Of a DNA stretch of 64,000 bases, positions 42,353 through 58,710 are shown in pieces. The position numbers were made by a program, and so were the translations under genes. How positions within the stretch are numbered: the first letter of the stretch is position 1; each line of letters begins with the position of its first letter. The notes beneath the pieces are model-generated. The model saw only the letters and a list, made by a program, of their open reading frames with translations, was not told the origin of the DNA and did no database searches. Source of the stretch: Marivita sp. S6314 (GTDB lineage: Bacteria; Pseudomonadota; Alphaproteobacteria; Rhodobacterales; Rhodobacteraceae); assembly GCF_023015985.1 (NCBI RefSeq), contig NZ_JALKAO010000002.1:186001-250000 (forward strand), written 5' to 3'.

Positions 42353-43405
42353 TCAGGCCTTGCGGCGTCCGGTCACCGGATCAAACACATGCGCCTGCCC
42401 GTCCTGAACACGGAAATTCCGCTCCCCACCCACACGCTCAAGCGGATGCACACCCGGTAGACTGATGGTGAACTGATCCGGGCTGCCCGCGATCTTGCCG
42501 TGCAACAGCGTGTTGGCCCCCAAGGGTTCGGTTAGGTGAACAGTCACCTTGATCGGGCCGTCGGGATCTACGTCCATGTGTTCGGGTCTGATCCCGAGTT
42601 TGACAGGTCCGTCCGGGCCAGAGGCCTGTGCTATCGGCGTACCGGCAATCTGCACCTGCCCATCGCGCAGCTCTGCATCAAGAATATTCATGGCCGGGCT
42701 TCCGATGAACTGCGCCGCAAACAAGGTTTGCGGGGTCTCATAGACCTCAAGCGGTGTCCCGATCTGCTCCGCAATCCCACCATTCATCACGATCATGCGG
42801 TCCGCCATGGTCATCGCTTCGACCTGATCATGTGTCACATAGAGCGATGTGATCCCCAGCTCGGATTGCAGTTGCTTGATCTCAAGCCGCATCTGGACCC
42901 GCAGCTTGGCGTCGAGGTTCGACAGCGGTTCGTCGAACAGAAACACCGCCGGTTCGCGCACAATGGCGCGGCCCATGGCGACACGCTGGCGCTGACCACC
43001 TGACAATTCACGGGGTTTGCGGTCGAGCAGAGCATCCAGTTGCAACAGCTTGGCCGCGTTCTGGACCTTTGCGTTGATTTCGTCTTTCGGAAGTCCCGCA
43101 ATCTTGAGCCCGTAGCCCATGTTCTGACGCACGCTCATATGCGGATAAAGCGCATAATTCTGGAACACCATCGCGATATCGCGGTCCATCGGTTCCTTGT
43201 CATTGGCACGGGTGCCACCGATCAGAACGTCACCTGCCGTGACCGTTTCCAACCCCGCCACCATCCGCAACAGTGTGGACTTGCCACAGCCAGACGGGCC
43301 GACGATGACGATAAACTCGCCATCTGCGATATTCACGTCGATCCCGTGGATCACATCCGTGGGCCCAAAGCTTTTCTTCACGCCCTGCAAAGCAACTGTC
43401 GCCAT
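42353..43405 (-). CDS. ugpC: sn-Glycerol-3-phosphate-type ABC transporter ATP-binding protein
   Basis: 350 residues of the MalK/UgpC group: Walker [10 protein letters not shown] near residue 37, Q-loop [13 protein letters not shown], signature [12 protein letters not shown], Walker [17 protein letters not shown], and a C-terminal TOBE-type domain with LGIRPEHMD. It powers the UgpAE channel. Last gene of the ugpAEC run, three bases after ugpE. Confidence 0.93.
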
Positions 43406-43408
43406 AAC

Positions 43409-44266
43409 CTATTTCTCGCTGTCTACGAGGCCGCGAATGAACAGCCGTTGCATCGAAATGACCACGATCACCGGCGGGATCATCGCCAGGATCGAGGTCG
43501 CCATGATCACCGGCCAATCTGCCACATCATCCCCCGACGGGAACATCTGCTTGATGCCCATGACGATGGTGTTCATCTCGGGGTCGGTCGTGATCAGCAG
43601 CGGCCAGAGATACTGGTTCCAGCCGTAGATGAACAGGATCACGAAAAGCGCTGCGATGTTCGTGCGACTCATCGGAACAACGATGTCCCAGAAAAACCGC
43701 ATCGGTTTCGCACCGTCGACCCGCGCCGCCTCGGCCAGCTCATCGGGGATGGTCAGGAAGAACTGCCGGAACAGGAACGTCGCTGTAGCAGACGCGATGA
43801 GAGGCAGGATGAGGCCCTGATAGCTGTTGAGCATCCCGAACCCTGCGACCACTTCGAACGTGGGCACGATCCGCACTTCGACCGGCAGCATCAGCGTCAG
43901 GAATATCATCCAGAAAAACGCCGTGCGGAACGGGAATTTGAAATAGACAATGGCAAAGGCGGATAGCAGCGAGATGATGATCTTGCCCACCGCGATGCCG
44001 ATGGCCATCACAAGGCTGTTGAACAGCATTGTGGCCACAGGCACGTTCACGCCCGAAAACAGCGCAGCGGAATAATTCTCCCAGAACTGATCGCCCGGCC
44101 AGAGCGGCATCGGCGGGCGCACAATCTCGGGCTGGGTCACGGTGGACGCCACAAAGGCCAGCCAGATCGGAAAGAAGATCACCAGCACGCCAAGGATCAT
44201 GAAGACATGCGTCAACCACAGCCCCGCGCCGCGCTTTTCGACCATGCCATGTGTTTCGCGCGCCAT
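43409..44266 (-). CDS. ugpE: sn-Glycerol-3-phosphate ABC transporter permease UgpE
   Basis: 285 residues, six transmembrane helices, EAA loop near [23 protein letters not shown]. This fits UgpE, the second permease of the glycerol-3-phosphate/glycerophosphodiester importer; related sugar importers look alike, and the assignment rests on the set (UgpB, A, E, C). The start overlaps the ugpA stop by one base (TGATG). Confidence 0.92.
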
Positions 44267-45147
44267 CAGTAATGCACCCGCTTTTCAAGGTATTTGAACT
44301 GGATCACCGTCAGCAGTCCGACAACCACCAAGAGGATCACCGACTGTGCCGAGGACGAGCCAAGGTCCTGGCCAACAAAGCCGTCTGAAAACACCTTGTA
44401 GACCAGGATCGTGGTGCTTTGCTGCGGCCCCCCTGCGGTGATCGTATGGATCACGCCAAAGGTTTCAAAGAACGCGTAAACGATGTTCACGACCAGCAGG
44501 AAGAACGTGGTTGGTGACAGCAGCGGCAATACGATCGTGAAGAAGCGCCGCCAGAACCGCGCGCCGTCAATGGCGGCGGCTTCGATCACCGAACGCGGGA
44601 CGGCCTGAAGGGCGGCAAAGAAGAACAGGAAGTTGTAGCTGATCCGCCCCCAGGCAGACGCGACCACGACAAGCCCCATCGCCTCCCCCCCGTTCAAGAC
44701 GTGGTTCCAGTCATAGCCGAACTGGCCCAGATACCACGAGATCACCCCAACGCGGGTGTTGAACATGAAAAGCCACAGCACGCCCGCGACGGCCGGGGCG
44801 ACCGCGTAGGGCCAGATCAGCATAGTGCGGTAGACACCTGATCCCTTGATCAGCCGGTCCGCAATGACCGCAAGGAACAAGGCCGGGATCATCGAACACA
44901 GCGTCACAAGGATCGAAAACACCGCCGTCGTGACAAATGACGCGCGGTAGAACGGGTCACCCAGCAGGAATTCGAAATTGCCGAGTCCCACAAATTGCGA
45001 GGACAGGCCAAACGGATCAGGGATAAACAGCGACTGCCAGATCGCCTGCCCCGCCGGGTAGAAAAAGAACACAGCCGAGATCACAACCTGCGGCGCGATC
45101 AACAGCAGCGGCAGCCACCATCCTTTGAACGTGACACGTTTGTCCAT
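44266..45147 (-). CDS. ugpA: sn-Glycerol-3-phosphate ABC transporter permease UgpA
   Basis: 293 residues with six helices; the N-terminus [17 protein letters not shown] and [14 protein letters not shown] are UgpA-like, and the EAA loop is near [20 protein letters not shown]. With UgpE it forms the channel. Unusually ugpA is separated from the binding-protein gene ugpB, upstream, by a parDE pair on the opposite strand. Confidence 0.92.
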
Positions 45148-45159
45148 CAGATTGCATCC

Positions 45160-45200
45160 TTGAAATTGGTGCTACCCGGTCGTACCATATACGCAAGGAG
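45160..45200 (+). promoter_or_regulatory. parDE promoter and candidate operator
   Basis: TTGAAA (45160-45165), 17 bases, TACCAT (45183-45188) form a good sigma-70 promoter. The short inverted repeat CGTA-CCATA-TACG (45181-45193, arms of four) overlaps the -10 box, as expected of an autorepressing antitoxin operator. The ribosome site AAGGAG follows at 45195-45200. The 60-base gap also has to hold the start of ugpA transcription, if any, on the other strand. Confidence 0.5.
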
Positions 45201-45207
45201 ACATGCC

Positions 45208-45483
45208 ATGACTGTCAAACTGTCCATTTCGCTGACCGATCAACAAGCCGAATACGCCCGCAAACAGGTCGAGGAAGGCCGCGCGTCGTCGACATCTGCC
45301 GTGATCCAGCAAGCGCTTGAGGCGAAGCGGCGCGAGGATGAAGAGTATCAGGAGTGGAAAGACGGCTTCTTCGACATGCTGGCCGAGCGCGAGAAAGGCC
45401 CGTTCCTGAACGCCGAGGAGTCGCAGAAGGCGTTTGATGAGATGATTGCAGAAAAACGCAGGCAGTATGGCCTGGACGCTTGA
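45208..45483 (+). CDS. parD: ParD-like antitoxin
   Basis: 91 residues: an N-terminal ribbon-helix-helix (VKLSISLTDQQAEYARKQV, SSTSAVIQQALE) for DNA binding and a charged C-terminal tail (EEYQEWKDGFFDMLAEREKG) that would wrap the toxin. Typical ParD/CopG antitoxin size. The ATG at 45208 is seven bases after AAGGAG. It overlaps the toxin start by 17 bases. Confidence 0.9.
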   Translation: MTVKLSISLTDQQAEYARKQVEEGRASSTSAVIQQALEAKRREDEEYQEWKDGFFDMLAEREKGPFLNAEESQKAFDEMIAEKRRQYGLDA

Positions 45484-45823
45484 TGACGCTGCGGCCGTCA
45501 CATCTGACCTCGATGCAATTTTTGATCATCTGTTGAACAGCTATCTGGGGTTCGGGGACCCGTTTGAAGGTGCGTTCAACCGTGCGAATGAACGTGTGGG
45601 CAACATCTATGTGAACCGCGAACGCCTTCTCAAGGCCCCACACATCGGTACGCGCCATGTTGTCAAAGGCCACACCTATCGGCACGTCACCATCGACCGC
45701 GCGATTTATTGGTTTGCGCTGGACGACACGGCAAAGGTGCTGCGTGTTCTGGGGATTTTCCATGGCGGTCAGGACCATCTGGATAGAATGATGTCGCGTT
45801 TGGCAGATGAGGGCGACAGCTAA
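45467..45823 (+). CDS. parE: ParE-like toxin (RelE/ParE superfamily)
   Basis: 118 residues with the ParE pattern: DDAAAVTSDLDAIFDHLLNSY at the N-terminus, then PHIGTRHVVKGHTYRHVTIDRAIYWFALD and KVLRVLGIFHG at the end. ParE toxins poison DNA gyrase; related RelE toxins cut mRNA, and the two cannot be separated by eye. Intact and coupled to parD. Its stop lies 21 bases from the end of the convergent ugpB. Confidence 0.88.
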   Translation: MAWTLDDAAAVTSDLDAIFDHLLNSYLGFGDPFEGAFNRANERVGNIYVNRERLLKAPHIGTRHVVKGHTYRHVTIDRAIYWFALDDTAKVLRVLGIFHGGQDHLDRMMSRLADEGDS

Positions 45824-45844
45824 CCGTCGCCCCCGATGTTTTGA

Positions 45845-47158
45845 TCAGCGATTGGCGCTTTCGAACCGGCGCAGCAACGCATCGCCGCGCTCTTTCGCGC
45901 TGTCCATCGCTTCCTGGGCTGTCTTGTCACCGGCCCAGATTGCTTCCAGCTCTTCATCAATGATGCCGCGGATCTGGTCGAACGATCCAAGGCGCAGGCC
46001 TTTGGAGTTTGCCGTCGGCTCCTTCGCCGTCATCTGGATCACGGCGATGTCTGTCCCGGGGTTTTCATCGTAGAACCCGGACGCGCGCGTAGCCTCGCCC
46101 GCCGCTGTGGTGATCGGCAGATACCCGGTGTCCTGGTGCCATTTCGCCTGCACGTCCGAGGAAGACAGGAAGGCCAGGAATTCGCCAACACCTTTGTACT
46201 CTTCGGCCTCATGCCCTTCGAGAACCCAGAGCGACGCGCCACCGATGATGGTGTTTTGCGGCGCGTTGCCGACGCCTTCCCAGTAGGGCAGCGGGCGTAC
46301 GTCAAAGTCGAACTCTGCTTCGGCCTTGATCCCGGCATAGCCTGCCGAGCTTTCGGTGAAGAGCGCGCATTCGCCCGCGCGGAAGTTGGCACCGCCTTCG
46401 TTGCGACGACCGGTATAGATGAACTTGCCGTCCTGCGCCCATTCGCCCATCGCCGTCAGATGCGCGACCTGTGCTTCGCCGTTCAGCATCAGTTCGGTAT
46501 CGAGACCGGCAAACCCGTTGTCCTGCGATGCAAATGGCACATCGTGGTAGGCCGAGAAGTTCTCAAGGTGAATCCAGCTTTGCCATGCAGTCACCAGCGG
46601 GCATTCCTCGCCACCGGCCTTGAGCTGATCCAGAACCGCACCGACATTCTGCCATGTCGACAGGTCGGAGTCCGGGTCCACGCCGGCCGCTTGCATCGCG
46701 TCGCGGTTCACCCACAGCACCGGTGTGGATGAGTTGAACGGCAGTGACAGCATCTCGCCATCTGTGGTGGTGTAATACCCCTTGACCGATCCGATATAGG
46801 CATCCGGATCAAAGGTCGCGCCGCTTTCGGCCATCACTTCGAACACCGGCTTCGTCGCGCCTTGGGCCGCCATCATCGTTGCGGTGCCAACCTCGAACAC
46901 CATCAGGATATGCGGCTGTTCACCGGCGCGGAACGCGGCGATCCCTGCGTTGAGCGTTTCGGAGTAGTTGCCCTTGTGGCTTTGAACGACGGTATAGTCG
47001 CTTTGGCTGGCGTTGAACTCTTCGACCTGTGCCGCCACCAATTCGCCCAGACGACCGGTGAAGGCGTGCCAGAATTGCACCTCGGTTGCAGCCGAGGCCG
47101 CAATAGGTGTGAGAACCGTGCTGGACAGGGCCAGCCCTGCAATCAACGTTTTTTTCAT
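45845..47158 (-). CDS. ugpB: sn-Glycerol-3-phosphate ABC transporter binding protein UgpB
   Basis: 437 residues, family length. The signal peptide ends near AASAA; the mature start TEVQFWHAFTGRLGELV is the UgpB hallmark, followed by LPFNSSTPVLWVNRDAM, and FSAYHDVPFASQDNGFAG. It binds glycerol-3-phosphate or glycerophosphodiesters in the periplasm. The ATG at 47158 has GGGAGGAAAC just upstream. Unlike the usual order, transcription must cross the antisense parDE pair to reach ugpAEC. Confidence 0.93.
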   Translation of the reverse strand: MKKTLIAGLALSSTVLTPIAASAATEVQFWHAFTGRLGELVAAQVEEFNASQSDYTVVQSHKGNYSETLNAGIAAFRAGEQPHILMVFEVGTATMMAAQGATKPVFEVMAESGATFDPDAYIGSVKGYYTTTDGEMLSLPFNSSTPVLWVNRDAMQAAGVDPDSDLSTWQNVGAVLDQLKAGGEECPLVTAWQSWIHLENFSAYHDVPFASQDNGFAGLDTELMLNGEAQVAHLTAMGEWAQDGKFIYTGRRNEGGANFRAGECALFTESSAGYAGIKAEAEFDFDVRPLPYWEGVGNAPQNTIIGGASLWVLEGHEAEEYKGVGEFLAFLSSSDVQAKWHQDTGYLPITTAAGEATRASGFYDENPGTDIAVIQMTAKEPTANSKGLRLGSFDQIRGIIDEELEAIWAGDKTAQEAMDSAKERGDALLRRFESANR

Positions 47159-47170
47159 GTTTCCTCCCAT

Positions 47171-47216
47171 GCGCCCTTTTTGCCGGGCGCTGTTGATGTC
47201 GGGCAAGTGGTGCCCG
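47171..47216 (-). promoter_or_regulatory. Two inverted repeats in the ugpB leader
   Basis: GCGCCC (47171-47176) / GGGCGC (47185-47190) and CGGGCA (47200-47205) / TGCCCG (47211-47216) form two short perfect hairpins directly upstream of the ugpB ribosome site. They may be operator or message-protecting structures. The rest of the 171-base gap to the HAD gene shows no clear PHO box. Confidence 0.4.
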
Positions 47217-47329
47217 TGATATGTGGCCGCGCGAGGCGTCCACGATAGAGTTGGTCGGACTTGCATCGTTTTCAAACCCTTTCGACCAGTTGATCCGCCC
47301 CCTGCACATGCCTTGATCCATCGGGCACC

Positions 47330-48226
47330 TCAGGGACGTGTCAAAACGTAACTTGGCGCAATTCCAGAGGCCTTGATGGCGCTTGGAACATCGCTTTCGG
47401 CAAAAAACCCGTACCCGGCGATCAGCGCAGACGCGATTCCTGCCGCATGCGCGCCCAGAATATCAGTGTGCAGGCTGTCGCCCACCATGACAACGCGGGA
47501 TTTGTCCACGTCGCCCAGACGGGCGAACGCGAGATCGTAGATATTGGGGTAAGGCTTGCCAAAAAACTGCGGCGACACAGGCGTCGTCTTGGCCAACCGG
47601 TGCGCGAAATACCCCGGTTCAACCGAAAATCCCGTCTCGCGGGGCGCGACGATGTCCGGATTGCCCACCAGAACGGGCCGTGGCTGCGCGGCCAGTGCTG
47701 CTTCAAGCCGGGCTTGCCGATCTTCGGTCCATGTCGCGCTGCCGATCAGCAGGAACCCCTCTGCCGCGTGATAGGCATCGGGATCATCCAGCAACTGAAT
47801 CGTGCGCACCGGGCCCAAGTCCTCCAACCCGTCGGCATCTCCGCCCATGACGCCCCATAGCCGGTCGTCCTGCGTGCCCAGCGCCGTGGTCAGCGATTGG
47901 CGGCTGGTGACGATATCGACCGGACCAAAGGGATAGCCAAGGCGGCGGTACTTGGTCACCAGCGACGACAACGGAACGCTTGCCGCGTTCGACACCACAA
48001 GCACCGTTTTGCCCGCCGCGATCAGGTCTTCGACCCGGCCTTGAACATCGGGAATGGCGCGTTCGCCAATGTTCAGAACGCCAAAGGCATCCAGCAGAAA
48101 TACATCGAATTCATCGCTCAGGTCGGCCAGCGTCTCGCGATAGACCGGCTCGGCCCGCGCAGACGCAACGTCCGGCAAAACGTCCCGGACCGCTTCATAC
48201 TCGGCAAACGCCTGATCGACCGTCAT
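47330..48226 (-). CDS. HAD-IIA family hydrolase
   Basis: 298 residues. The HAD core shows LLDAFGVLN (nucleophile D46), VVSNAASVP, PYPNIYDLA and the metal motif GDSLHTDILGAHAAG. It looks like the phosphatase group that strips phosphate from small metabolites, but the second Asp of the DxD motif is Phe (F48), the residue that normally acts as acid/base. It starts five bases after the second phnE and ends 171 bases before ugpB, so it sits between two phosphate-compound importers. Confidence 0.85.
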   Translation of the reverse strand: MTVDQAFAEYEAVRDVLPDVASARAEPVYRETLADLSDEFDVFLLDAFGVLNIGERAIPDVQGRVEDLIAAGKTVLVVSNAASVPLSSLVTKYRRLGYPFGPVDIVTSRQSLTTALGTQDDRLWGVMGGDADGLEDLGPVRTIQLLDDPDAYHAAEGFLLIGSATWTEDRQARLEAALAAQPRPVLVGNPDIVAPRETGFSVEPGYFAHRLAKTTPVSPQFFGKPYPNIYDLAFARLGDVDKSRVVMVGDSLHTDILGAHAAGIASALIAGYGFFAESDVPSAIKASGIAPSYVLTRP

Positions 48227-48231
48227 CGAGA

Positions 48232-49047
48232 TCAAATGATGGCACCCCGCACTTTTGCAGAAACCCATTCGCTGAGCACCACGGCGGCAAGAATGACAAG
48301 CAGGATCAAGCTGACTTGCGGCCATGCCAGCACGTTAAGTGAGGCGGACAATTGCAACCCAATCCCGCCGGCCCCGACAAGGCCCAGCACGGTAGATTCC
48401 CGAATATTGATGTCCCAGCGGAACACCGCGATGCCGGCAAAGGCGGGCATGATCTGCGGGACAATGCCATACGCCATGACCTGCCAGCGGGACGCGCCGG
48501 TTGCGGTGATCGCCTCGACCTGGCTTTCGTCGATTTCCTCGATCGCCTCGTAAAGCAGCTTCGCACAGAACCCGATAGAGCGGATCGCAATCGCGATGAC
48601 CCCGGCAAACACACCCGGCCCGATGATGGCAATCAACAGCAGCGCCCAGATCAGCGAATTGATCGACCGTGTAGACACGATAATCAACAGTGCAATGGGC
48701 CGGATGAACAAGGCCGACGGCGTTGTGTTGCGCGCGGCCAGGAATGCCACGGGAACTGCAAGAAACAACGCGATGATCGTGCCCAATGTGGCGATGTTCA
48801 GCGTGTCCCAGATGGGGCGTCCCAGTTGCGTGATGTATTCCCAGCGCGGCGGTGTCGCCCGGGTCCAGATGTCTTCGGCAATGCGCGGGGCATCCCAGAC
48901 AAAGAACCACGTGGTCGATTCCGAAATCCGCTGCCAGCACACCAGAAACACTGCCAGCCCCAAAAGCCAGCCAAACCAGCGCACAAGGCTTTCGCGTGGG
49001 GTGCGACGGCGCCAGTTGATGCCTTCGTCTCGTTCAATGATCGGCAT
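48232..49047 (-). CDS. phnE: Phosphonate-type ABC transporter permease PhnE (second)
   Basis: 271 residues, about six helices. PhnE markers include NTTPSALFIRPIALLIIVSTRS and the EAA-like block IDESQVEAITATGASRWQVMAYG followed by [22 protein letters not shown]. The start overlaps the first phnE stop by one base (TAATG). Two adjacent PhnE proteins are common in PhnCDE systems, acting as a heterodimer. Confidence 0.92.
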   Translation of the reverse strand: MPIIERDEGINWRRRTPRESLVRWFGWLLGLAVFLVCWQRISESTTWFFVWDAPRIAEDIWTRATPPRWEYITQLGRPIWDTLNIATLGTIIALFLAVPVAFLAARNTTPSALFIRPIALLIIVSTRSINSLIWALLLIAIIGPGVFAGVIAIAIRSIGFCAKLLYEAIEEIDESQVEAITATGASRWQVMAYGIVPQIMPAFAGIAVFRWDINIRESTVLGLVGAGGIGLQLSASLNVLAWPQVSLILLVILAAVVLSEWVSAKVRGAII

Positions 49048-49862
49048 TACTGAACCCTCGCCCTGATGACACCAGACAGGTATTCAAGCGCCATAACGAT
49101 GCCGATGATCAAAAGCAGGATCGCCGCTGCGGTGTCGTACTCGTAGCGGTCAAAGGCGGTATTGAGCGTCGCGCCGATGCCCCCCGCCCCGACAAGACCC
49201 AGGATTGCGCTCTCGCGGAAGTTGATGTCGATCCGGTACATGGACAACCCCACCAGACGCGGCATGACCTGCGGCTGCACACCGTAATTGATCCACTGCA
49301 TCCATTTGGCGCCCGACGCCTTGATGGCCTCGGCCTGAACCTTGTCCATGGACTCGATATCTTCGGCCAACAGTTTCGACAAAAAGCCGATGGTCGCGAA
49401 CGACAGCGTCAGGAAACCGGCCAGGGGGCCAAACCCGAAGATCGCAACCAACAGGATCGCCACGATGATTTCCTGCAACGCGCGACTGACCGCAACAATG
49501 CCCCGGCAGATCATATAGACGGGCAAAGGCGCGATGTTACGCGCCGCACCAAGACCAATGGGGATCGAGATCAGGATCCCCACAACCGATGCGGCCACCG
49601 TCATCACGATGCTTTCCAAAAGCCCGCCCCAGATGTCACCAGCCCGCGACACGAAATCCGGCTTGGTGAAGGCAAGGACAAACTGTGCGCCCCGATCAAG
49701 GCCTTCATAGACCCGGGACCAGTTCACATCGATCGTCATGAAAGAGGCGATCAGATACGCGACGAACCCGATGATCAGGGTCCAGCGCAGGGTCGGGTTC
49801 GGGACGAAACTCGGCTTGCGCCATTTCGTGCCCAACATATCGTCCAGTTCACGATGGCTCAT
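49047..49862 (-). CDS. phnE: Phosphonate-type ABC transporter permease PhnE (first)
   Basis: 271 residues, same length as its partner but clearly divergent. It shows [19 protein letters not shown] and [20 protein letters not shown], with [20 protein letters not shown] in the middle. The ATG overlaps the phnC stop by four bases. It forms the membrane channel with the second PhnE. Confidence 0.92.
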
Positions 49863-50653
49863 TCCGCGGCCTCGATATCGTCTTCGTCTTCGATCTTCTC
49901 GATCGTGGCTTCCCAGTCTTCCTCGCCGTAAATCTCGGTCAGTTTGTCTGGTGTCAGACCTGTGGGCAGACCGTCATAGACGATCTCACCAAAGCGCAGG
50001 CCGACAACGCGGGGCACGAACATCTGCGCCAGCGCCACGTCATGAATGTTGATGATCGCCGCCAGTCCGCGCTCCTGACACAGCTCGGTGATCAGGCGCA
50101 TGATCTGGCGCGATGTTTTTGGATCAAGCGATGCGGTGGGCTCATCCACCAGCAACAGCTTGGGGTTCTGGATCAGCGCCCGGCAAATACCGACCCGCTG
50201 ACGTTGCCCGCCGGACAATTCGTCCGCGCGCTTGTCGGCCATGTGCAACAGACCCACACGGTCCAGCAGGCGAAACGCCTCGTCCACGTCCGATTGCGGG
50301 TATCGCCGCAGGAAGGACCGCCAGAAGCCGACATAGCCCAGTCGCCCCGACAGCACGTTTTCCATCACCGTCAGCCGTTCGACCAACGCATATTCCTGAA
50401 AGATCATGCCCATTTCGCGCCGGGCTTTGCGCAATGCGCCGGAACTGAGCTTCGACAGGTCCACATCATCCAGCAGGATCGCGCCCCCGGTGGGTTCAAC
50501 CAACCGGTTAATGCACCGGATCAGCGTCGATTTCCCGGCCCCCGACGGGCCGATCAGAGCCAGAACCTGGCCTTTCGGCACTTCGAGATCGATGGATTTC
50601 AGGGCCTGGTCACCTGTTTTATAGGTCTTAACCAGCTTGTTTAGGCGCAGCAT
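49859..50653 (-). CDS. phnC: Phosphonate-type ABC transporter ATP-binding protein
   Basis: 264 residues, PhnC-like. Walker A is GPSGAGKST near 34-42; the Q-loop region reads [24 protein letters not shown], a PhnC feature; signature [11 protein letters not shown]; Walker [17 protein letters not shown]. Acidic C-terminal tail. It follows phnD after a 65-base gap that holds a strong hairpin. Confidence 0.94.
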
Positions 50654-50701: not shown

Positions 50702-50718
50702 GTTTCAGAACAACGCGA

Positions 50719-51693
50719 TTATTCGCAGGCGTAGCTGACGCCATTGGCAGAATCGATCTGCCGGATCACCGCCCAGAATTCCTTGTAGTTCATCGGAAGG
50801 AACTGACCTTCGTTGGACTTCGAGAATTCTTCCTCAAGCGACGTGCCTTCCCATGGGAAGTTGATGAACGCATCACGGATCTGTTCCTGCAATTCCGGCG
50901 TCAGATTGTGTGCCGTGCCATAGCCCGTCGTCGGGAAGGTCTGCGAGGTGTAGATCGAAACGATCTGGTCCTCGGACACAACGTCCCGCGAGGTCATGCG
51001 GTGCAGAACCGAATTCGCGATGGCCGCTGCCGGGTAGTCCTTGTTCGCAACACCCAGGATCGAGTTGTCGTGCTTGCCGGAAAAGACCGGTTCAAAATCA
51101 ACCTCTGCTTCCATCCCGTATTCGCTTTTCAGGATCGCGGACGGTGCCTTGAAACCTGAATTCGATGTCGGCGAGGTAAACGCCATCTGTCCGCCCTTGA
51201 TGTCTTCGACCTTTTCGATACCAGAGCCCGGATAGGTGATGATCTCCATCTCGTAGCCAAAGCTGCCATCGGTCGCCGCCATCAACGCGAATGGACGGAA
51301 CCCCGCACAGTTCACGGCCAGCGGGTTGGATCCTGTGTTGAAGCCCGCAACATGCAGACGCCCCGACCGCATCGCTTCAATCTGGGCTGCGTTACTTTGC
51401 ACGGGGAAGAACACAACATCCTTGCCGGTTTTTTCCGACAGGTGGTCAATGAAATCTGCCCAAGCCGCGGCGTAAACGGCCGGGTCTTCCACCGGGGTGT
51501 AGGCAAACACCAGTGTGTCCGGATCGACCAGTTCGGACGCATCCGTTGGGATATCGGCCACAAGATCGCCGTCGACGTCGCAATAGCGTTCGTCCAGATC
51601 GCCGCGCGGGCAATCCTGCGCAGAGGCTGCGCCCCCAAAGGCCATAAACGCTGCAACAGACGCGCTCAGCACAAGTTTCGAATTGATTTTCAT
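50719..51693 (-). CDS. phnD: Phosphonate-type ABC transporter binding protein
   Basis: 324 residues with a signal peptide (cleavage near ASAQD). After a Cys-containing N-terminal stretch (CPRGDLDERYCD) the PhnD core has LVFAYTPVEDPAVYAAAWADF, HVAGFNTGSNPLAVN, FTSPTSNSGFKAP and FSGKHDNSILGVANKDY. It binds a phosphonate, phosphite or similar phosphorus compound in the periplasm. No C-P lyase or phosphonatase gene is in the window. GGGAGG precedes the ATG. It is the first gene of phnDCEE. Confidence 0.92.
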   Translation of the reverse strand: MKINSKLVLSASVAAFMAFGGAASAQDCPRGDLDERYCDVDGDLVADIPTDASELVDPDTLVFAYTPVEDPAVYAAAWADFIDHLSEKTGKDVVFFPVQSNAAQIEAMRSGRLHVAGFNTGSNPLAVNCAGFRPFALMAATDGSFGYEMEIITYPGSGIEKVEDIKGGQMAFTSPTSNSGFKAPSAILKSEYGMEAEVDFEPVFSGKHDNSILGVANKDYPAAAIANSVLHRMTSRDVVSEDQIVSIYTSQTFPTTGYGTAHNLTPELQEQIRDAFINFPWEGTSLEEEFSKSNEGQFLPMNYKEFWAVIRQIDSANGVSYACE

Positions 51694-51765: not shown

Positions 51766-52575
51766 TCAGTCGGCGGTCTCCAGGGTTACGTTCGATACGT
51801 CCAGTGCCGCCAGCAAAGCGCCGCTTGGCTTTTGATCCACGATGATCGTTGTAAGGTCTTCCAGTGCGCTCACGCTCGCAAGTCCTTTTTTGCCGAACTT
51901 CTCAGAATCGATCAGCAGATGCCGGTGCGACGCCCGACGCAGCATGACCCGCTTGACCGCCGCAAAGCCGGTCACTGACTCGCAGGGGCCTTCTTCGGTC
52001 AGACCGGACGCGCCGATGATCGCGTGATCGACATAAAACCGCGACAGGAACTCAAGCGTTTCGGTGCCGATCACGGCGGATTCGGCGGGTAGGTACTGGC
52101 CGGGGCACAGCAACACGTCACACACCCCGTGGCCCAGCGTCATCGCAACGGGAATCGAATTGGTCACCACGGTGCAGGGCGTTTCGAGATAGGCCAGTGA
52201 CCGCGCCATCTGGATCGTGGTCGCCCCCGAATCGATCATCACGGTTTCGCCCGCATTGATCAGGCGCGCCCCAGCCAGCCCGATCCGCTCGCGTTCGCGC
52301 GTGCGGGCGTTCACCCGTTCGTCAAGGCTGGGGTAATGGCCCTGTGACGGCGCCGACGCGCCACCATGGGCCCGGTTGATAAACCCGTCTTCAGCCAAGG
52401 AATCCATATCGCGCCGGATTGTTTCGGTCGACACGCCAAACCGCTTCGACATCTCACTGATCCGGACATGCGGGCTCAGCTTCAGCTCAAGAAGAATCTG
52501 CCGACGCCGGTCAGATTTCTTGAGCCGCCGCGACCCGTCCGGATCCTGAAATTTGCGCAGCTTGTCTTTTGGCAT
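51766..52575 (-). CDS. DeoR/GlpR-family transcriptional regulator
   Basis: 269 residues: N-terminal DeoR helix-turn-helix (RRRQILLELKLSPHVRISEMSKRFGVSTETIRRDMDSL; the recognition helix is STETIRRD) and a C-terminal sensor domain of the sugar-phosphate isomerase type (VMIDSGATTIQMARSL, FAAVKRVMLRRASHRHLLIDSEKFG). DeoR proteins bind phosphorylated sugars or polyols as signals. It lies just upstream of phnD on the same strand and faces the AfuA-like gene across 451 bases, so it probably controls both. The ATG at 52575 has CGGAAC upstream. Confidence 0.9.
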   Translation of the reverse strand: MPKDKLRKFQDPDGSRRLKKSDRRRQILLELKLSPHVRISEMSKRFGVSTETIRRDMDSLAEDGFINRAHGGASAPSQGHYPSLDERVNARTRERERIGLAGARLINAGETVMIDSGATTIQMARSLAYLETPCTVVTNSIPVAMTLGHGVCDVLLCPGQYLPAESAVIGTETLEFLSRFYVDHAIIGASGLTEEGPCESVTGFAAVKRVMLRRASHRHLLIDSEKFGKKGLASVSALEDLTTIIVDQKPSGALLAALDVSNVTLETAD

Positions 52576-53026
52576 TTGTTCCGATGGCAACAAGTTTGAG
52601 CAAGGATTGTGGCTTTTCCACCTGTATTGCAACTAATTTTGTTGCTTATGCCTCGGATTGGTGGTGATGCTTGGGGCAAGACAAGGATTGATGCGACCGG
52701 TGCACGACGAAAAACCCCATCATCTGCGCAAGGACAGGCTGCTAAACCTGCTGGGTACTGCGTGCTGTTGCGTGCGGACGCGGCGGATCGCGAAAGGCCC
52801 CGCCGCATGATTGACCGGGCACCCCGCCACATCCGGGTCACCACCCCGACTATTCGGCTCGGCCAGAGAACTCTTTTGGTGACCGCGCCGCAAAAGATCG
52901 GCTACGACTTAGACACAAGAGCCAAACAGAACCCCATGCGCCACCGGATTACGGCGATGACATGAGGCACAGGGAATTGGCCGGATCGGCAATGTCGAGC
53001 AAAGACAGACACCTAGGGAGGACACC
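52576..53026. promoter_or_regulatory. Control region with GCAAC/GTTGC repeats
   Basis: This 451-base divergent gap contains GCAAC at 52587-52591 and an inverted pair GCAAC (52629-52633) / GTTGC (52641-52645) around an AT spacer, close to the regulator start: a candidate autoregulatory operator. A strong GGGAGG ribosome site precedes the gene at 53027. I found no canonical PHO box. An open frame of about 118 codons at 52609-52965 has no coding support. Confidence 0.4.
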
Positions 53027-54052
53027 ATGAAAAAACTTACAACAACGCTTCTATCGTCAGCACTTGCGCTTGGCGCATCCATGACGGCGGCGCAGGCCGA
53101 CAAACTGACGTTCTATTGCAGCGCGCAGGAAGACTGGTGCCAGTTGATGGCCAACAGCTTTCAGGACGCCACCGGCATCGATGTCAGCATGACTCGCAAA
53201 TCCTCGGGCGAAACCTTTGCGCAAATCCGCGCCGAATCCTCGAACCCGCGTGGCGATGTCTGGTGGGGCGGCACCGGGGACCCGCACCTGCAAGCAGCCG
53301 AGGAAGGCCTGACGATGGAATACGTCTCGCCGATGCGCGATCAACTGCATCCGTGGGCGATCAGCCAGGCGGAAAGCGCGGGCAACAAGACCATCGGCAT
53401 CTATTCGGGCGCTTTGGGCTATGGCTACAACACAGACCTCGTTGCGGCCAACAACTTGCCGGAACCATCCTGCTGGAAAGACCTGCTCAAGCCGGAATAC
53501 AAAGGCCATGTGCAAATGGCGAACCCGAATTCCTCGGGCACGGCCTACACCACGTTGGCCTCCATGGTGCAGATCTTTGGCGAAGACGAAGGCTTTGAAT
53601 TCATGAAAGGCCTGCACGCCAATATCAACCAGTACACAAAGTCAGGCTCTGCCCCGATCAAGGCAGCGGGTCGTGGTGAGAACACTATCGGCATCGTCTT
53701 CATGCACGACGCTGTGGCGCAAGCGGTGTCTGGCTTCCCGATCAAGGTGGTCGCGCCCTGCGAAGGCACCGGTTACGAGATCGGCTCTATGTCCATCATC
53801 GACGGCGCGCGCAATCTGGATGAGGCCAAGCAGTTCTACGATTGGGCCTTGTCGGCTGAGGCACAGAACCTTGCCCTGCAAGTGAACGCGTTCCAGGTGC
53901 CATCGAACAAGGGTGCCGAAACATCCCCGTCTGCACCTGACATGAGCACGATCAAGCTGATCGACTACGATTTCAAAAAGTACGGATCGTCCGACGAACG
54001 CAAGCGTCTGCTGCAGAAGTGGGACGAAGAAGTCTCGGTCCTGCCGCAGTAA
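53027..54052 (+). CDS. AfuA-like ABC binding protein, probably for phosphorylated sugars
   Basis: 341 residues with a signal peptide (cleavage near AAQA). The mature protein begins DKLTFYCSAQEDWCQ and has RKSSGETFAQIRAES and DVWWGGTGDPHLQAAEEG. The fold is that of FbpA-type ferric-iron binders, but the Tyr-Tyr iron pair is replaced by H227-D228 (VFMHDAV), and a Glu lies at 251. As I recall, AfuA of Actinobacillus uses His, Asp and Glu at equivalent spacing to bind hexose phosphates. Iron remains possible but less likely. Confidence 0.86.
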   Translation: MKKLTTTLLSSALALGASMTAAQADKLTFYCSAQEDWCQLMANSFQDATGIDVSMTRKSSGETFAQIRAESSNPRGDVWWGGTGDPHLQAAEEGLTMEYVSPMRDQLHPWAISQAESAGNKTIGIYSGALGYGYNTDLVAANNLPEPSCWKDLLKPEYKGHVQMANPNSSGTAYTTLASMVQIFGEDEGFEFMKGLHANINQYTKSGSAPIKAAGRGENTIGIVFMHDAVAQAVSGFPIKVVAPCEGTGYEIGSMSIIDGARNLDEAKQFYDWALSAEAQNLALQVNAFQVPSNKGAETSPSAPDMSTIKLIDYDFKKYGSSDERKRLLQKWDEEVSVLPQ

Positions 54053-54055
54053 CCT

Positions 54056-56275
54056 GTGCGCGGATCCAGCCAGGACTCAACGTCTCATCCGGTCTTGACC
54101 TTCTGGGTCGTGGCCGGATGGGTCGGTTACTGTCTTCTGCCCTGGTACGGGGTGGAGGACGGTTTGTGGTCGTTTCAATGGCTGTTTGACGGCTACCCGT
54201 TTGACAGCGATTACGCCCCTGCCCTGTTCCTGATCATGCAGGGGGAAAAGCTGTGGCTGGCCCCGCTTTTGATCCCGCTGATCCTGCCTTTGCTCGTATT
54301 GCGCAAAGTCAAATCTGATCCGCTCTACGCGCGGATGCTGGTGCTTGCAGGCGCGTTGGGTTTTGGCTGGCTGATCATCCAGGGCTTTTCCATCGGCATT
54401 CGCGGCTTCAACTACGACTGGATGAAGGCCGTCTTCGGCGATCTCGGAGACCGCCAGTTCGGCATGGGCTACGGTGCCATGCTGGTCGCCTCCGCCTTCC
54501 TGTTCCTGCTCACCCAAGGCATCGCCGCGCGCGGGGCTGTGAATGGCGACGTGTTTGTCGTCAGCGCCATTGGCGGTGTGATCACCATTGTCACGGCATT
54601 CGTATTCTTCCCCATCGCCAAGATGCTGTTTGCCGCCTTTGTCACTGAAGATGGCTCTTATTCGGTTGGCGTATTTGTTTCCAAATTCTTTGACGACCGC
54701 CTCTGGGGCCTCGGCTGCTTGTCCGGTGGCCGCTGTGGTGCAGCGTGGAATTCGCTGTTCCTTGCCATCTGCGTCGGGTTCATCACCACCGTTCTGGGCC
54801 TCGCCTTTGCGCTGGCCGTCACCCGTTCGGGGTTCCGCTATAAAAAAGCGATGCGCGCGCTGACGGTTCTGCCGATCATCACGCCGCCCTTCGTCATCGG
54901 CCTCGCGCTGATCCTGCTCTTTGGCCTCTCTGGCACAGTCACTGTCTTCATCGCCGACCTGTTCGGCGTGCAACCCACCCGCTGGCTTTACGGAATGCCG
55001 GGTGTCCTGATCGCCCAAACGCTGGCCTTCACCCCCATCGCCTTCCTCGTCCTCATAGGTGTGGTCGAAGGCGTGTCCCCGTCGATGGAGGAAGCCTCCC
55101 AAACGCTGCGCGCGAACCGCTGGCAAACCTTCCGCACCGTGTCCCTGCCCCTGATGCGGCCCGGTTTGGCCAATGCCTTTCTGTTGGGCTTCATCGAAAG
55201 CATGGCTGACTTTGGCAACCCGCTTGTGCTGGGCGGAAATTTCGACGTGCTGTCCACCGAGATTTTCTTTGCCATCGTCGGCGCACAATATGACCAAAGC
55301 CGCGCCGCTGTGCTGGCGATGGTGCTGTTGTTCTTCACCCTCTCTGCCTTTTACGCCCAGCGCGTCTGGCTGGGGAAGAAAAGCTACACCACCGTGTCCG
55401 GCAAAGGCGATGCGGGTGTGCATCCGCTGATGCCCAAGGGCCTGTCGATCCCGGTGCTCGTCATCGCCATCGGCTGGGCGTTTTTCACCGCTGTGGTCTA
55501 CTGCATGATCATCTATGGCAGCGTTGTTGAACTCTGGGGCGTGAACAATTCGCTCACCTTCAAGCACTACGTCACCGCCTTCAGCGTCCGTTTTGAGGAA
55601 GAAGGAATCCGCTGGACCGGCGCCGCGTGGGACAGCTTCTGGACGACCATCACCATCGCGGCCATCGCAGCACCGTTGACGGCGGCTGTGGGTCTGGTCA
55701 CGGCCTACCTGCTGACCCGACAAAGCTTTGCGGGCAAGAATGCGTTCGAGTTCGGCACCATGCTGTCCTTCGCCATCCCCGGCACCGTGATCGGTGTCAG
55801 CTATATCCTCGCCTTTAACGTCCCACCGATTGAGATCACCGGCACGGGCATCATCCTTGTCGTCAGCTTCATCTTCCGCAACATGCCGGTGGGTGTGCGG
55901 GCAGGGATCGCGAGCATGAGCCAACTCGACAAGTCACTGGACGAGTCGTCGCTCACCCTCGGAGCAAACTCGTGGCAGACTTTCCGCCGGGTGATCCTGC
56001 CGCTGCTGCGCCCCGCGATCCTCGCAGCCCTCGTCTACAGCTTTGTCCGCGCGATGACGGCGATTTCTGCCGTGATCTTCCTCGTCTCGGCAGAATACGA
56101 CATGGCAACGAGCTACATCATCGGGCGGGTCGAGAATAACGACTATGGCCTCGCCATCGCCTATTCGACGACGCTGATCTTCGTGATGCTCAGCGTGGTG
56201 GGCTTGCTGCAATTCCTTGTCGGACGGGTTCAGATCGGACGACGCACTCAAATCGGAACAGGGAGATCAACATGA
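54056..56275 (+). CDS. AfuB-like ABC transporter permease, double permease with long N-terminus
   Basis: 739 residues, two BPD_transp_1 domains (about 230-450 and 500-735) preceded by roughly 200 residues of extra helices, the AfuB layout. EAA-type loops lie near SMEEASQTLRANRWQTFRTV and near LDESSLTLGANSWQTFRRV. It forms the whole channel. The start is a GTG three bases after the binding-protein stop with no clear ribosome site, so the N-terminus is less certain. The stop overlaps the ATPase gene by four bases. Confidence 0.9.
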   Translation: MRGSSQDSTSHPVLTFWVVAGWVGYCLLPWYGVEDGLWSFQWLFDGYPFDSDYAPALFLIMQGEKLWLAPLLIPLILPLLVLRKVKSDPLYARMLVLAGALGFGWLIIQGFSIGIRGFNYDWMKAVFGDLGDRQFGMGYGAMLVASAFLFLLTQGIAARGAVNGDVFVVSAIGGVITIVTAFVFFPIAKMLFAAFVTEDGSYSVGVFVSKFFDDRLWGLGCLSGGRCGAAWNSLFLAICVGFITTVLGLAFALAVTRSGFRYKKAMRALTVLPIITPPFVIGLALILLFGLSGTVTVFIADLFGVQPTRWLYGMPGVLIAQTLAFTPIAFLVLIGVVEGVSPSMEEASQTLRANRWQTFRTVSLPLMRPGLANAFLLGFIESMADFGNPLVLGGNFDVLSTEIFFAIVGAQYDQSRAAVLAMVLLFFTLSAFYAQRVWLGKKSYTTVSGKGDAGVHPLMPKGLSIPVLVIAIGWAFFTAVVYCMIIYGSVVELWGVNNSLTFKHYVTAFSVRFEEEGIRWTGAAWDSFWTTITIAAIAAPLTAAVGLVTAYLLTRQSFAGKNAFEFGTMLSFAIPGTVIGVSYILAFNVPPIEITGTGIILVVSFIFRNMPVGVRAGIASMSQLDKSLDESSLTLGANSWQTFRRVILPLLRPAILAALVYSFVRAMTAISAVIFLVSAEYDMATSYIIGRVENNDYGLAIAYSTTLIFVMLSVVGLLQFLVGRVQIGRRTQIGTGRST

Positions 56276-57342
56276 GCGCCCCCAAGATCGGCTCAAAAGC
56301 GGCCCCCGTCCGGTTCGACGGTGTCTCGAAAGTCTTCGGCAAAGACGTGGTTGCCGTCGACAACATCGACCTGCATGTCGGCGCTGGCAAGCTGGTCACG
56401 CTGTTGGGTCCGTCGGGCTGCGGCAAGACGACGACGCTGCGGATGATCGCCGGGCTTGAGATGGCCAGTTCCGGTCGCATACTGATCGGCGATCAGGACG
56501 TGACCAAACTGCCCGCCACCGACCGCGACGTGTCGATGGTGTTCCAGTCCTACGCGCTGTTCCCGCATATGTCGGTGCTGGAAAACGTGATGTACGGATT
56601 GACGTTTTCGGGCTTCAAGAAAGACGAGGCGCGCGCGCGGGCCTTGCATGGGCTGGACCTTGTCGGCCTCAAAGGGTTCGACGCCCGCTTGCCCAGCGAA
56701 TTGTCCGGCGGCCAACAACAACGCGTCGCCGTCGCCCGTGCGCTGGTGCTTGAACCGCAGGTGCTCCTCTTCGATGAACCGCTGTCCAACCTCGACGCGA
56801 AACTGCGCCGTCAGGTCCGCGAAGACATCCGGGCGATTCAGCAAGACCTTGGCCTCACCGTCGTCTACGTCACCCACGATCAGGAAGAGGCGCTGGCCGT
56901 GTCAGACGAAATCGTGGTCATGCGCAACGCCTCTATCGCGCAGATCGGCACACCCCGGGCGCTTTATGACGAACCCGCCGACACCTTTGTCGCCGACTTC
57001 ATCGGCGAAGCAAATCTGATCACCTGCGAGATCACAGAGATCAACGGCGACCAGGCCACGATCAGCATCGAAGGGTTCACGCACACCCTGCCCTCGCGTG
57101 GGTTGCCGATTGGCCCCGCCACCCTTGCGGTGCGCCCGTCGCGCATCGTGATCGCGAACGGCCCCGGCATTCCCGCGCGGATTGCCAAGGCGACTTATGT
57201 GGGCGTGCGCATGGAATATACGCTGGAAGGCGGGTTCGGTCAGGTCTTCGCGGTGCAGGACAATGTGGATGAGCCGCTTGAGGTCGGGTCGGACATTCAC
57301 ATGTCATTCGCCGCCAAGGGCCCGGTACTCTTGCCGGAATAG
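56272..57342 (+). CDS. AfuC-like ABC transporter ATP-binding protein
   Basis: 356 residues with Walker A GPSGCGKTT near 44-52, VFQSYALFPHMSVLENVMYG, signature LSGGQQQRVAVAR, Walker [17 protein letters not shown] and a C-terminal TOBE domain (LAVRPSRIVIAN). It belongs to the FbpC/PotA/AfuC group and powers the permease encoded just upstream (ATGA overlap). A histidine phosphatase gene follows after six bases. Confidence 0.92.
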   Translation: MSAPKIGSKAAPVRFDGVSKVFGKDVVAVDNIDLHVGAGKLVTLLGPSGCGKTTTLRMIAGLEMASSGRILIGDQDVTKLPATDRDVSMVFQSYALFPHMSVLENVMYGLTFSGFKKDEARARALHGLDLVGLKGFDARLPSELSGGQQQRVAVARALVLEPQVLLFDEPLSNLDAKLRRQVREDIRAIQQDLGLTVVYVTHDQEEALAVSDEIVVMRNASIAQIGTPRALYDEPADTFVADFIGEANLITCEITEINGDQATISIEGFTHTLPSRGLPIGPATLAVRPSRIVIANGPGIPARIAKATYVGVRMEYTLEGGFGQVFAVQDNVDEPLEVGSDIHMSFAAKGPVLLPE

Positions 57343-57348
57343 CCACCT

Positions 57349-57915
57349 ATGGCCCGCCTGATCTTTGTGACGCATCCAGAGGTTGCCGTTGACCCGGATG
57401 TCCCGGTCACCCAATGGGCGCTCAGCCAGCGCGGAATCGCCCGCGCACAGGCTTTTGCCCGATCAGAGGTTCTGCGCGACGTCGCGCACATCTGGTCCAG
57501 CGCGGAACGCAAGGCGCAGGACACCGCCGCGATCCTGTCCTCGGCTTTGGGGGTGGATGTTCAAACCGATCCGAAGCTTGGGGAAAATGATCGCAGCGCC
57601 ACCGGCTTTTTACCACCGGATCACTTCGAAACCGCCGCCGACGCGTTTTTCGCGCAGCCGGATCAAAGCTTCGAAGGTTGGGAAACCGCACGCGCCGCGC
57701 AGGCGCGGATTGTCCTGGCCGTCACCACGCTTTGCAAAACGCAAGGGCCGGGCGACATACTGATCGTGTCCCATGGGGCGGTGGGAACGCTTTTGTATTG
57801 CCACCTTTCGGGCACCCGCATCGACCGGATGCACGACCAACCGCATCAGGGGCATTACTGGATTGCGGATCGCTCGACCTTTGCCCCCTTGCACGCGTGG
57901 CAATCAATCGGCTGA
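57349..57915 (+). CDS. Histidine phosphatase family protein with altered RHG motif
   Basis: 188 residues of the phosphoglycerate-mutase-like family. The catalytic His is H9, but the RHG motif reads THP (VTHPEV), so the first phosphate-binding Arg is missing. SSAERKAQDTAAIL and the second-His block LIVSHGAVGTLL are kept. Six bases after the ATPase gene, it may be part of the importer operon and act on the imported phosphate ester. It overlaps the end of the convergent IMPase gene by 12 bases. Confidence 0.85.
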   Translation: MARLIFVTHPEVAVDPDVPVTQWALSQRGIARAQAFARSEVLRDVAHIWSSAERKAQDTAAILSSALGVDVQTDPKLGENDRSATGFLPPDHFETAADAFFAQPDQSFEGWETARAAQARIVLAVTTLCKTQGPGDILIVSHGAVGTLLYCHLSGTRIDRMHDQPHQGHYWIADRSTFAPLHAWQSIG

Positions 57916-58710
57916 GGGTCCAGCCCCCCAGGCCGCATCCGCGATGCCCTTCAATGCGTCAAACACCTGCGGCGCGCCAACAAGCACGCGTCCCCCTTGC
58001 GCGATCATCTCTTGCGCGTCCTGGTCTTCCACCACGCCGCCCGCCTCTGCGATCAACAGCTGACCGGCCAGACAATCCCACGCGTTCATGTGCTCTTCCA
58101 TGTAGCCCAGCAACCGCCCCGCCGCGACATAGGCCAGCGACAACGCGCCTGACGCGTTGCGGTGGAACATCGCGCCCCGGTCGATCAAGGCCTCGATCAC
58201 GGGCAGGACATTGCGCGCCTCTACCCGGTTGGAATAGCCAACCGCCACCGTTCCCGACGCCAGTTCCGTGCTGGTATTCACGGCCATCGGCGCACCGTTC
58301 AACAGCGCGCCCTGCCCGCGCGTTGCCGCGTAGGTTTCCCCCACAAGCGGGTCATGAATGACGCCGATCTGGGTTTGCGACTGCGCCACGCCTGCCAGAA
58401 CAATTGTCCAGCTCGGAATGCCGTTTACGAAATTCGTGGTCCCGTCGATGGGATCAATCACCCAATCAAAGCCGCTTGTGCCTTGCTTTGGCGCATGTTC
58501 TTCGCCGTAGATCCCGTCTTCGGGAAATGCATCGGCCAGCGCGTCCCGAATAAACACTTCGACGGATTTATCGGCCTCGCTGACCCAGTCCTGCCGACCT
58601 TTCTTCGAAACCTCCAGATCCGAGAGGTTGCGAAAAAACGCAAGCGCGTGTTGACCAGCGGCTTGGCTGATGTCTTCGGCGCGTGCTCTGCGTGTTGTCA
58701 GATCGGTCAT
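57904..58710 (-). CDS. Inositol monophosphatase family protein
   Basis: 268 residues with intact IMPase motifs: E70/E71 (YGEE), DPIDGTTNF at 86-94 holding the metal-binding Asp residues, and WDCLAGQLLIAEAGG. It removes phosphate from inositol-1-phosphate or a similar sugar phosphate (some members act on PAP or histidinol phosphate) with Mg. The ATG at 58710 has AAGGGG upstream; an eight-residue in-frame extension is not needed. Convergent with the histidine phosphatase gene. Confidence 0.92.
   Translation of the reverse strand: MTDLTTRRARAEDISQAAGQHALAFFRNLSDLEVSKKGRQDWVSEADKSVEVFIRDALADAFPEDGIYGEEHAPKQGTSGFDWVIDPIDGTTNFVNGIPSWTIVLAGVAQSQTQIGVIHDPLVGETYAATRGQGALLNGAPMAVNTSTELASGTVAVGYSNRVEARNVLPVIEALIDRGAMFHRNASGALSLAYVAAGRLLGYMEEHMNAWDCLAGQLLIAEAGGVVEDQDAQEMIAQGGRVLVGAPQVFDALKGIADAAWGAGPSAD

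Follow-up and report, generated by a model that had tools for sequence, protein, structure and literature searches.

A composite locus in Marivita sp. S6314 predicted to import glycerol phosphates and sugar phosphates, with an operator-like element at its DeoR gene

Within a stretch of 64,000 nucleotides of contig NZ_JALKAO010000002.1 (positions 186,001 to 250,000; hereafter the window), the 3.77 Mb genome of the marine alphaproteobacterium Marivita sp. S6314 carries a locus in which three importers, a DeoR-family regulator and three proteins of phosphatase fold are encoded side by side (Table 1). An earlier note, made from the letters and the open reading frames (ORFs) of this DNA, had listed these genes and their families, and both the list and its location are borne out by the ORFs and by family models; to it has to be added a ParD-like/ParE-like pair lying between ugpB and ugpA, which had been overlooked. 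The genes ugpC, ugpE, ugpA, one phnE and that of the Afu ATPase were named from their position and from orthologs in relatives, without a family search. Most of these components are known or ordinary; it is their arrangement which is informative.

Table 1. Features of the Marivita sp. S6314 locus, numbered from the first letter of the window.
Feature	Coordinates	Strand	Basis
ugpC, ATPase of the Ugp importer	42353..43405	-	ORF; orthologs of relatives in the same order downstream of HAD
ugpE, permease	43409..44266	-	ORF; orthologs in relatives
ugpA, permease	44266..45147	-	ORF; orthologs in relatives
ParD-like antitoxin and ParE-like partner (partner named from position and size)	45208..45823	+	Strand opposite to that of the flanking ugpB and ugpA
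ugpB, glycerol-phosphate binding protein (predicted)	45845..47155	-	NF008211; pocket residues
HAD-IIA hydrolase near TIGR01459	47330..48223	-	Motif I DAFGVL
PhnE-type permease 2 of the Gpx importer	48232..49047	-	TIGR01097 above cut-off
PhnE-type permease 1 of the Gpx importer	49047..49862	-	ORF; orthologs in relatives
PhnC-type ATPase of the Gpx importer	49859..50653	-	TIGR02315 above cut-off
gpxB (usual annotation phnD), sn-glycerol-1-/3-phosphate binding protein (predicted)	50719..51693	-	Identity to 9LF9
deoR, DeoR/GlpR-family regulator	51766..52575	-	PF08220 and PF00455 above cut-off
Candidate DeoR operator TAAGCAACAAAATTAGTTGCAA	52627..52648	-	deoR-afuA divergent region
AfuA-like binding protein, probable hexose/heptose-phosphate ligand	53027..54052	+	Identity to AfuA 4R72; pocket
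AfuB-like fused permease	54056..56275	+	Family models
AfuC-like ATPase	56272..57342	+	ORF; orthologs in relatives
Divergent histidine-phosphatase-fold protein, THP replacing RHG	57349..57915	+	PF00300
Inositol-monophosphatase family enzyme, convergent with the histidine-phosphatase gene	57904..58710	-	PF00459; intact motifs

The importer that would usually be annotated as PhnDCEE is a GpxB-type system, with sn-glycerol-1-phosphate (G1P) and sn-glycerol-3-phosphate (G3P) as its predicted ligands in Marivita, because its binding protein shares 77.4% identity over 292 residues with the Marinobacter GpxB chain 9LF9 and keeps all nine pocket residues (T111, G112, Y138, S168, N169, S170, H199, R223 and T247; positions taken from PMC12718374), which are invariant in 80 relatives with the exception of one substitution in one sequence. 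In the same paper, chains 9LF9 and 9LFB represent Marinobacter GpxB with G1P/G3P, and 9LFF and 9LFJ Phaeobacter UgpB; the GpxB proteins of Phaeobacter and Marinobacter bind G1P and G3P with dissociation constants of about 1-2.5 micromolar, three Sulfitobacter GpxB proteins bind in the low micromolar range, Phaeobacter UgpB binds the two compounds similarly, and a gpxB ugpB double mutant loses growth on both. That PhnDCEE is rather an ordinary importer of phosphonate, phosphite or inorganic phosphate, as its family names imply, must be considered highly improbable: although the cut-offs of TIGR02315, TIGR01097 and TIGR01098 are reached by its components, phosphate uptake via PhnCDE is possible (PMC6469041) and picocyanobacterial PhnD1 has been proposed as a phosphate transporter (PMC10284923), GpxB falls below the PhnD equivalog TIGR03431 (144.5 against 261.1 bits), its pocket is complete, including the Arg/Thr pair that binds the ligand tail, the structure to which it is 77% identical was solved with G1P and G3P, and the genome lacks PhnJ, the core of carbon-phosphorus (C-P) lyase (0 matches genome-wide, the E. 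coli control being positive). The suggestion of the earlier note that the cargo may be something other than classical phosphonates is borne out by the published GpxB work together with the pocket comparison; as to its statement that neither a C-P lyase nor a phosphonatase is present, the former part holds for PhnJ across the genome, the phosphonatase not having been searched genome-wide.

UgpBAEC and the GpxB-type importer are non-homologous and both are assigned to glycerol-1-/3-phosphate, the ligands in Marivita being predicted. UgpB scores 543 bits against the NF008211 equivalog (cut-off 411), is 52% identical to Phaeobacter UgpB (9LFF) and retains nine of nine pocket positions, including the Trp pair, as do 11 of 11 relatives. 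The small genes inserted between ugpB and ugpA lie outside the uptake function; the ParD-like protein matches TIGR02606 with an E value of 3e-7, below the cut-off of that model, and for its ParE-like partner no convincing match was obtained in Pfam or NCBIfam. The same junction in Sagittula salina holds homologs of both (64% for ParD, 44% for ParE), and none were detected at that threshold in the other 10 ugp-linked loci.

The third importer is probably devoted to sugar (hexose or heptose) phosphates. Its AfuA-like binding protein shows 48.6% identity with AfuA of Actinobacillus (4R72) and keeps 16 of the 18 contact residues described in PMC4546632 and PMC8427247, among them H205, D206 and E229; these 16 positions, and likewise the three-residue motif, are conserved in 28 of 28 relatives. 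According to the same papers, the loss of the three residues renders the binding of glucose-6-phosphate by AfuA undetectable, and AfuA binds sugar phosphates, not iron (PMC4546632). The identity of more than 65% to AfuA seeds required in PMC8427247 is not reached, the value of 48.6% referring to one AfuA chain. Three other substrates were considered and rejected: aminoethylphosphonate (AepX/PhnS2 and PhnS), given scores of 229.9 against 392.75 bits for TIGR03261 and of 78.1 against 395.3 bits for TIGR03227 and the presence of the AfuA motif; pyridoxal phosphate (P5PA, 6WCE), with which the fold is compatible, yet the nearest solved chain is AfuA, and P5PA has been suggested to be restricted to Pasteurellaceae (PMC8427247); and iron, which finds no support, the three nearest chains being AfuA, one chain with an iron-type title and P5PA. 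By eye, many relatives show a short CCGG-rich inverted repeat (for instance CCGGGAAAACCGG) ahead of the ribosome-binding site of afuA, the corresponding sequence of the window being GCCGGATCGGC. The proposal of the earlier note that all three importers look like carriers of phosphorylated organic compounds is supported.

The distribution of these importers was followed in the best 80 of at least 495 gpxB relatives, that is, in named loci of close relatives, each tally counting those with sufficient flanking sequence; clustering of recurrent neighbours was filtered, since shadow ORFs swamped the unfiltered result. Among the matches listed, the closest named relative of the window gpxB is that of Marivita hallyeonensis (91%). 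A deoR gene precedes gpx in 44 of 80 loci and a HAD-IIA gene follows it in 62 of 72, while 26 of 71 have afuABC divergently upstream within 9 kb (26 of 39 with deoR, 0 of 32 without) and 11 of 65, every one of them with deoR, have ugpBAEC no more than 7.5 kb downstream. In the same order and on the same strands, the three importers recur in Marivita, Tateyamaria, Silicimonas and Boseongicola (seven loci). The pairing of gpx with HAD-IIA is therefore the common one, afu joins part of the deoR-bearing loci, and the form with three importers is a minority. Within the genus, 14 of 16 relatives possess gpxB, which adjoins afuA in 7, ugpB in 9 and both in 5 of the 14, some stretches ending at contig ends. 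In a broader sample of 120 genera, one genome each (thresholds of E<=1e-80 for gpxB, 1e-50 for HAD-IIA, 1e-110 for ugpB and 1e-100 for AfuA), the four genes are present in 39, 40, 43 and 24 genera, respectively; ugpB adjoins gpxB in 3 of 44 ugpB hits, and of the 12 genomes that possess both AfuA and gpxB, 6 have them no more than 8 kb apart.

It could be objected that the three importers have come together by chance or by shared mobility and have no joint function. Three-way linkage is indeed rare; on a GpxB tree which itself has weak support (stars on 8 of its 78 inner branches), the state of linkage changes at least 15 times for afu and at least 8 times for ugp, the latter count equalling the lowest of 200 shuffles, while afu (15 changes, the shuffles giving 17 or more) and deoR (10 changes, the shuffles giving 18 or more) track the tree and are in that sense partly inherited; and the window ugpB is closest (93%) to that of a genome of another genus devoid of gpxB, linked ugp of most genus mates reaching 77-80%. 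Replacement or transfer of the ugp block (42353-47155, minus strand) is suggested. On the other hand, afu linkage is confined to loci with deoR; a different AfuA/GpxB pair (59% and 53% identical) is also adjacent in one further genome; and, because gene order and strands recur across genera, the arrangement is not due to chance. Phylogeny-aware pair tests of deoR against afu and ugp yielded too few supported independent pairs. All in all, an accidental neighbourhood seems unlikely.

The HAD-IIA protein scores just under the cut-off of TIGR01459 (102.6 against 103.75 bits); its motif I reads DAFGVL in 60 of 64 rows (window included) and DAYGVL in 3, one row being unaligned there, and 63 rows conserve the nucleophile together with Lys223 and Asp249/Asp254. 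Across the 120 genera, HAD-IIA and gpxB occur together in 29, HAD-IIA alone in 11, gpxB alone in 10 and neither in 70 (Fisher p 7e-11, not corrected for ancestry), and 24 of 42 HAD hits lie within 5 kb of gpxB. In three genomes of this sample, the gene is found near ugpB in the absence of gpxB: in one of them (G030) the cluster is deoR-HAD-ugpBAEC without gpx, and in the other two HAD is encoded 3-4 kb downstream of ugpB in the same orientation, an arrangement that would fit a place after ugpAEC. In addition, genome G011 possesses, alongside its gpx cluster, a second cluster composed of nptA and deoR-HAD-ugpBAEC, again without gpx. HAD-IIA is thus attached to either glycerol-phosphate importer, ugp without gpx included, an association which appears to be new; the strongest reason to think that it acts on glycerol phosphate is its company with two importers that are unrelated yet share this substrate. 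A second type of HAD also accompanies gpx: in ten deoR-less loci a canonical, Gph-like DxDGT protein is encoded in the same orientation as gpxB and about 0.8 kb upstream of it. The idea that a canonical HAD stands in where HAD-IIA is missing was discarded, since it fits only 2 of 10 loci. As to other enzymes, a glycerol kinase is encoded in the genome, and matches to Fe-ADH_2, the family containing G1P dehydrogenase, were too weak and unspecific for an assignment.

Two further phosphatase-fold genes adjoin afuABC. Branch 1 histidine phosphatases carry the motif RHG; the protein of the window, for which the PF00300 cut-off is reached and the second His is kept, belongs to a group of 17 rows (window included) of which 13 read THP and 3 SHP, the remaining one being unaligned there, and its only solved match is 2QNI, the uncharacterised Atu0299. 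Its gene is present in 15 of 28 afu loci. The inositol-monophosphatase family bears the motifs GEE, DPxDGT and WDxxAG, all of which are intact in the window protein (GEE, DPIDGT, WDCLAG); in 26 of the 28 loci the distance from its gene to afuC is below 2 kb.

The DeoR protein contains the DeoR helix-turn-helix (PF08220) and sensor (PF00455) domains, both above cut-off, and misses both GlpR equivalogs (119.5 against 331 bits for NF008154, 135 against 300 for NF041397). Upstream of its gene lies a conserved operator-like element, GCAACA-N6–8-TTG, at the divergent promoter region, which we believe to be described here for the first time and whose window copy is TAAGCAACAAAATTAGTTGCAA. In a looser form, (A/G/T)CAACA-N6-8-TTG, it is present in 40 of 44 loci no more than 130 bp ahead of deoR, mostly at -69 or -70, against 0.0065 per locus expected from the rate elsewhere in the same loci; the pattern having been drawn from these same 44 loci, the enrichment is descriptive. 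The strict form gives 11 matches in 10 of 17 genomes (the own one and 16 of the same genus), all of them 901-935 bp from the gpxB hit, and the reversed control a single one; among the seven genomes without a match, two lack gpxB as well and the others have variants or no deoR. The gpx-less deoR-HAD-ugp cluster of G011 also carries the element. Position and co-occurrence suggest binding by DeoR. Scans for sigma-70 promoters and terminators gave about chance numbers.

On the other side of the divergent region, the gene opposite deoR belongs in 21 of the 44 loci to the sodium/phosphate (Na/Pi)-cotransporter-PhoU family, in 13 to NUDIX, in 5 is afuA and in 5 is none of these; wherever afuABC accompanies an Na/Pi or NUDIX gene in this place, it comes next on the strand of that gene. 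Since the element lies in the divergent region, with afuABC on its other side, one site could govern both directions. Where at least 2.8 kb of upstream sequence is available, the Na/Pi gene lies divergently upstream in 20 of the 42 deoR-bearing loci and in 0 of the 35 others. YjbB, a member of the same cotransporter family, can export phosphate when overexpressed (PMC11850910), which suggests that the Na/Pi gene may, by analogy, let out phosphate that is released when carbon sources are used.

Whether such a locus is meant for carbon or for phosphorus has to be considered: in Phaeobacter MED193, UgpB is induced by phosphorus starvation in a phoB-dependent manner (PMC10132767), and unlinked ugpB genes of two relatives are preceded by Pho-box-like sites (12 and 11 of 14 positions, reached in 0 of 100 shuffles each). 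In the window, a scan with a Pho-box consensus gave 5 sites with 3 mismatches where 4.5 are expected, and none of these precedes ugpB, where the best site (8 of 14) is attained by 100 of 100 shuffles; moreover, it was growth on G1P/G3P as carbon that led to GpxB, which these compounds induce as carbon source (PMC12718374), and GpxB locus tags do not occur in the main text of the phosphorus-starvation study. A unit of the Pho response, harvesting phosphate rather than carbon, seems accordingly unlikely. Strong Pho boxes precede 2 of 7 unlinked and 0 of 13 linked ugpB genes (the latter including the gpx-less clusters of G011 and G030), which is too few for a claim of rewiring. In Ruegeria pomeroyi grown with Micromonas commoda, ugp rises 24- to 36-fold and phnCDEE, with a phnD of GpxB or other type, 2.5- to 4-fold (PMC9870897).

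The locus is therefore read, with a probability of roughly 60%, as a composite one for the salvage of phosphorylated three-carbon (C3) and six-carbon (C6) compounds. The GpxB-type and Ugp importers would bring in G1P and G3P, the backbones of lipids, and the AfuABC-like importer hexose or heptose phosphates; DeoR would keep the gpx-HAD(-ugp) transcript and, where near enough, also the divergent nptA/NUDIX/afuABC transcript repressed as long as no phosphorylated intermediate accumulates; HAD-IIA would process the imported glycerol phosphate, and G1P in particular, because enzymes specific for sn-G3P should not use it; finally, in about half of the deoR-bearing relatives, the Na/Pi gene at the shared divergent promoter might dispose of surplus phosphate during carbon use. 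A bolder version, in which DeoR and HAD-IIA constitute a reusable module joining gpx, ugp or both, HAD-IIA supplies the missing G1P step despite lacking the acid/base Asp, the Na/Pi protein exports the surplus phosphate and the whole is a dedicated route by which lipid backbones, among them archaeal G1P, serve as carbon, is put forward as speculation.

Several observations weigh against this reading. Loci having both afu and ugp with gpx are a minority (7 of 61 fully flanked ones) and ugpB and gpxB do not co-occur across genera beyond chance (p 0.23), so that the joining of ugp to gpx seems opportunistic; the single linked island proposed in the earlier note is seldom complete, although the condition under which that note would have been refuted, linkage in this genome only, does not apply, the linkage recurring in several genera. 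HAD-IIA is near neither importer in 15 of its 42 hits, and 16 of 40 gpxB hits, some on short contigs, have no HAD within 5 kb. The loose element is missing in 4 of the 44 loci and no element precedes deoR in the gpx-less cluster of G030; in the window there is no second copy before ugpB or afuA, and the deoR-afuA gap of 451 bp places the element about 380 bp from afuA. Of the idea that a single regulator may govern the whole, what stands is the conserved element at the divergent deoR promoter, and what falls short is any such copy before the other importers. The Na/Pi gene does not occur at the window locus, two family members being encoded elsewhere in the genome. Lastly, typical HAD phosphatases possess, besides the nucleophile Asp, an acid/base Asp two residues further on, and this is missing from HAD-IIA in the window and in 62 of 63 relatives (the remaining one is unaligned at this place). 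At motif I, DAFG and DVWG are found in 2HX1 and 6NQ4, the solved chains nearest to it. The absence of the acid/base Asp argues against an ordinary phosphomonoesterase. The three phosphatase folds of the earlier note are all present, but with THP in place of RHG in the histidine-phosphatase-fold protein the catalytic motifs are altered in two of them, and the freeing of phosphate in the cytosol is unproven.

The 2025 paper that identified the importers of G1P (PMC12718374) leaves regulation for later and, in its available text, does not name the enzyme of the next step; the locus offers a concrete regulator, a candidate operator and a candidate enzyme for the use of G1P and G3P in culturable marine bacteria, and an arrangement recurring in relatives which hints at the way in which the cell senses and uses what it imports. 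No prior description of the island or of the operator was found in the open-licence main texts searched, where TIGR01459 appears in an annotation table only. The role of the phn1 (phnDCEE') operons of arsenite-oxidase islands was left open by a 2013 survey (PMC3834237). In pSinA and in a plasmid of Martelella AD-3, the phnDCEE binding protein is 72% identical to the window GpxB, with nine of nine pocket residues (NC_021209.1, 40850-44349; NZ_CP014277.1, about 125313-128761). Such operons may import glycerol phosphates as a source of phosphate that avoids competition by arsenate, and 'phosphonate' importers of the GpxB type, those of arsenic islands included, are probably misannotated glycerol-phosphate importers.

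Compared with known systems, the phn1 operons of arsenite-oxidase islands differ in their neighbours, which are ars and pst genes, and the annotation of the two stretches contains no HAD, DeoR, Ugp or Afu. No arsenic or pst genes were found, at the threshold used, in the 80 gpxB loci and the window. With GlpR-type repressors the regulator shares its two domains; it differs in missing the GlpR equivalog and in a strict candidate element confined to the gpx locus in 17 same-genus genomes. The AfuABC system of Actinobacillus (PMC4546632) has in common H205/D206/E229, the phosphate-binding residues and the order binding protein-permease-ATPase; that of the window differs in an identity of only 49%, in 2 of 18 changed pocket positions and in the divergent histidine-phosphatase-fold gene that follows it. 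Likewise, UgpBAEC resembles the glycerol-3-phosphate importer of the same name in equivalog and pocket, and differs in its placement after gpx-HAD, in showing no Pho box in the scan and in the ParDE-like pair. Finally, the Gpx importer of Phaeobacter and Marinobacter (PMC12718374) has the same PhnT-family architecture, in addition to the identity and the pocket residues given above; HAD, DeoR and the operator are not named in the available text of that paper ('phosphatase' and 'DeoR', 0 occurrences each), and gpx and ugp, which bear distant locus tags in Phaeobacter, adjoin in the window.

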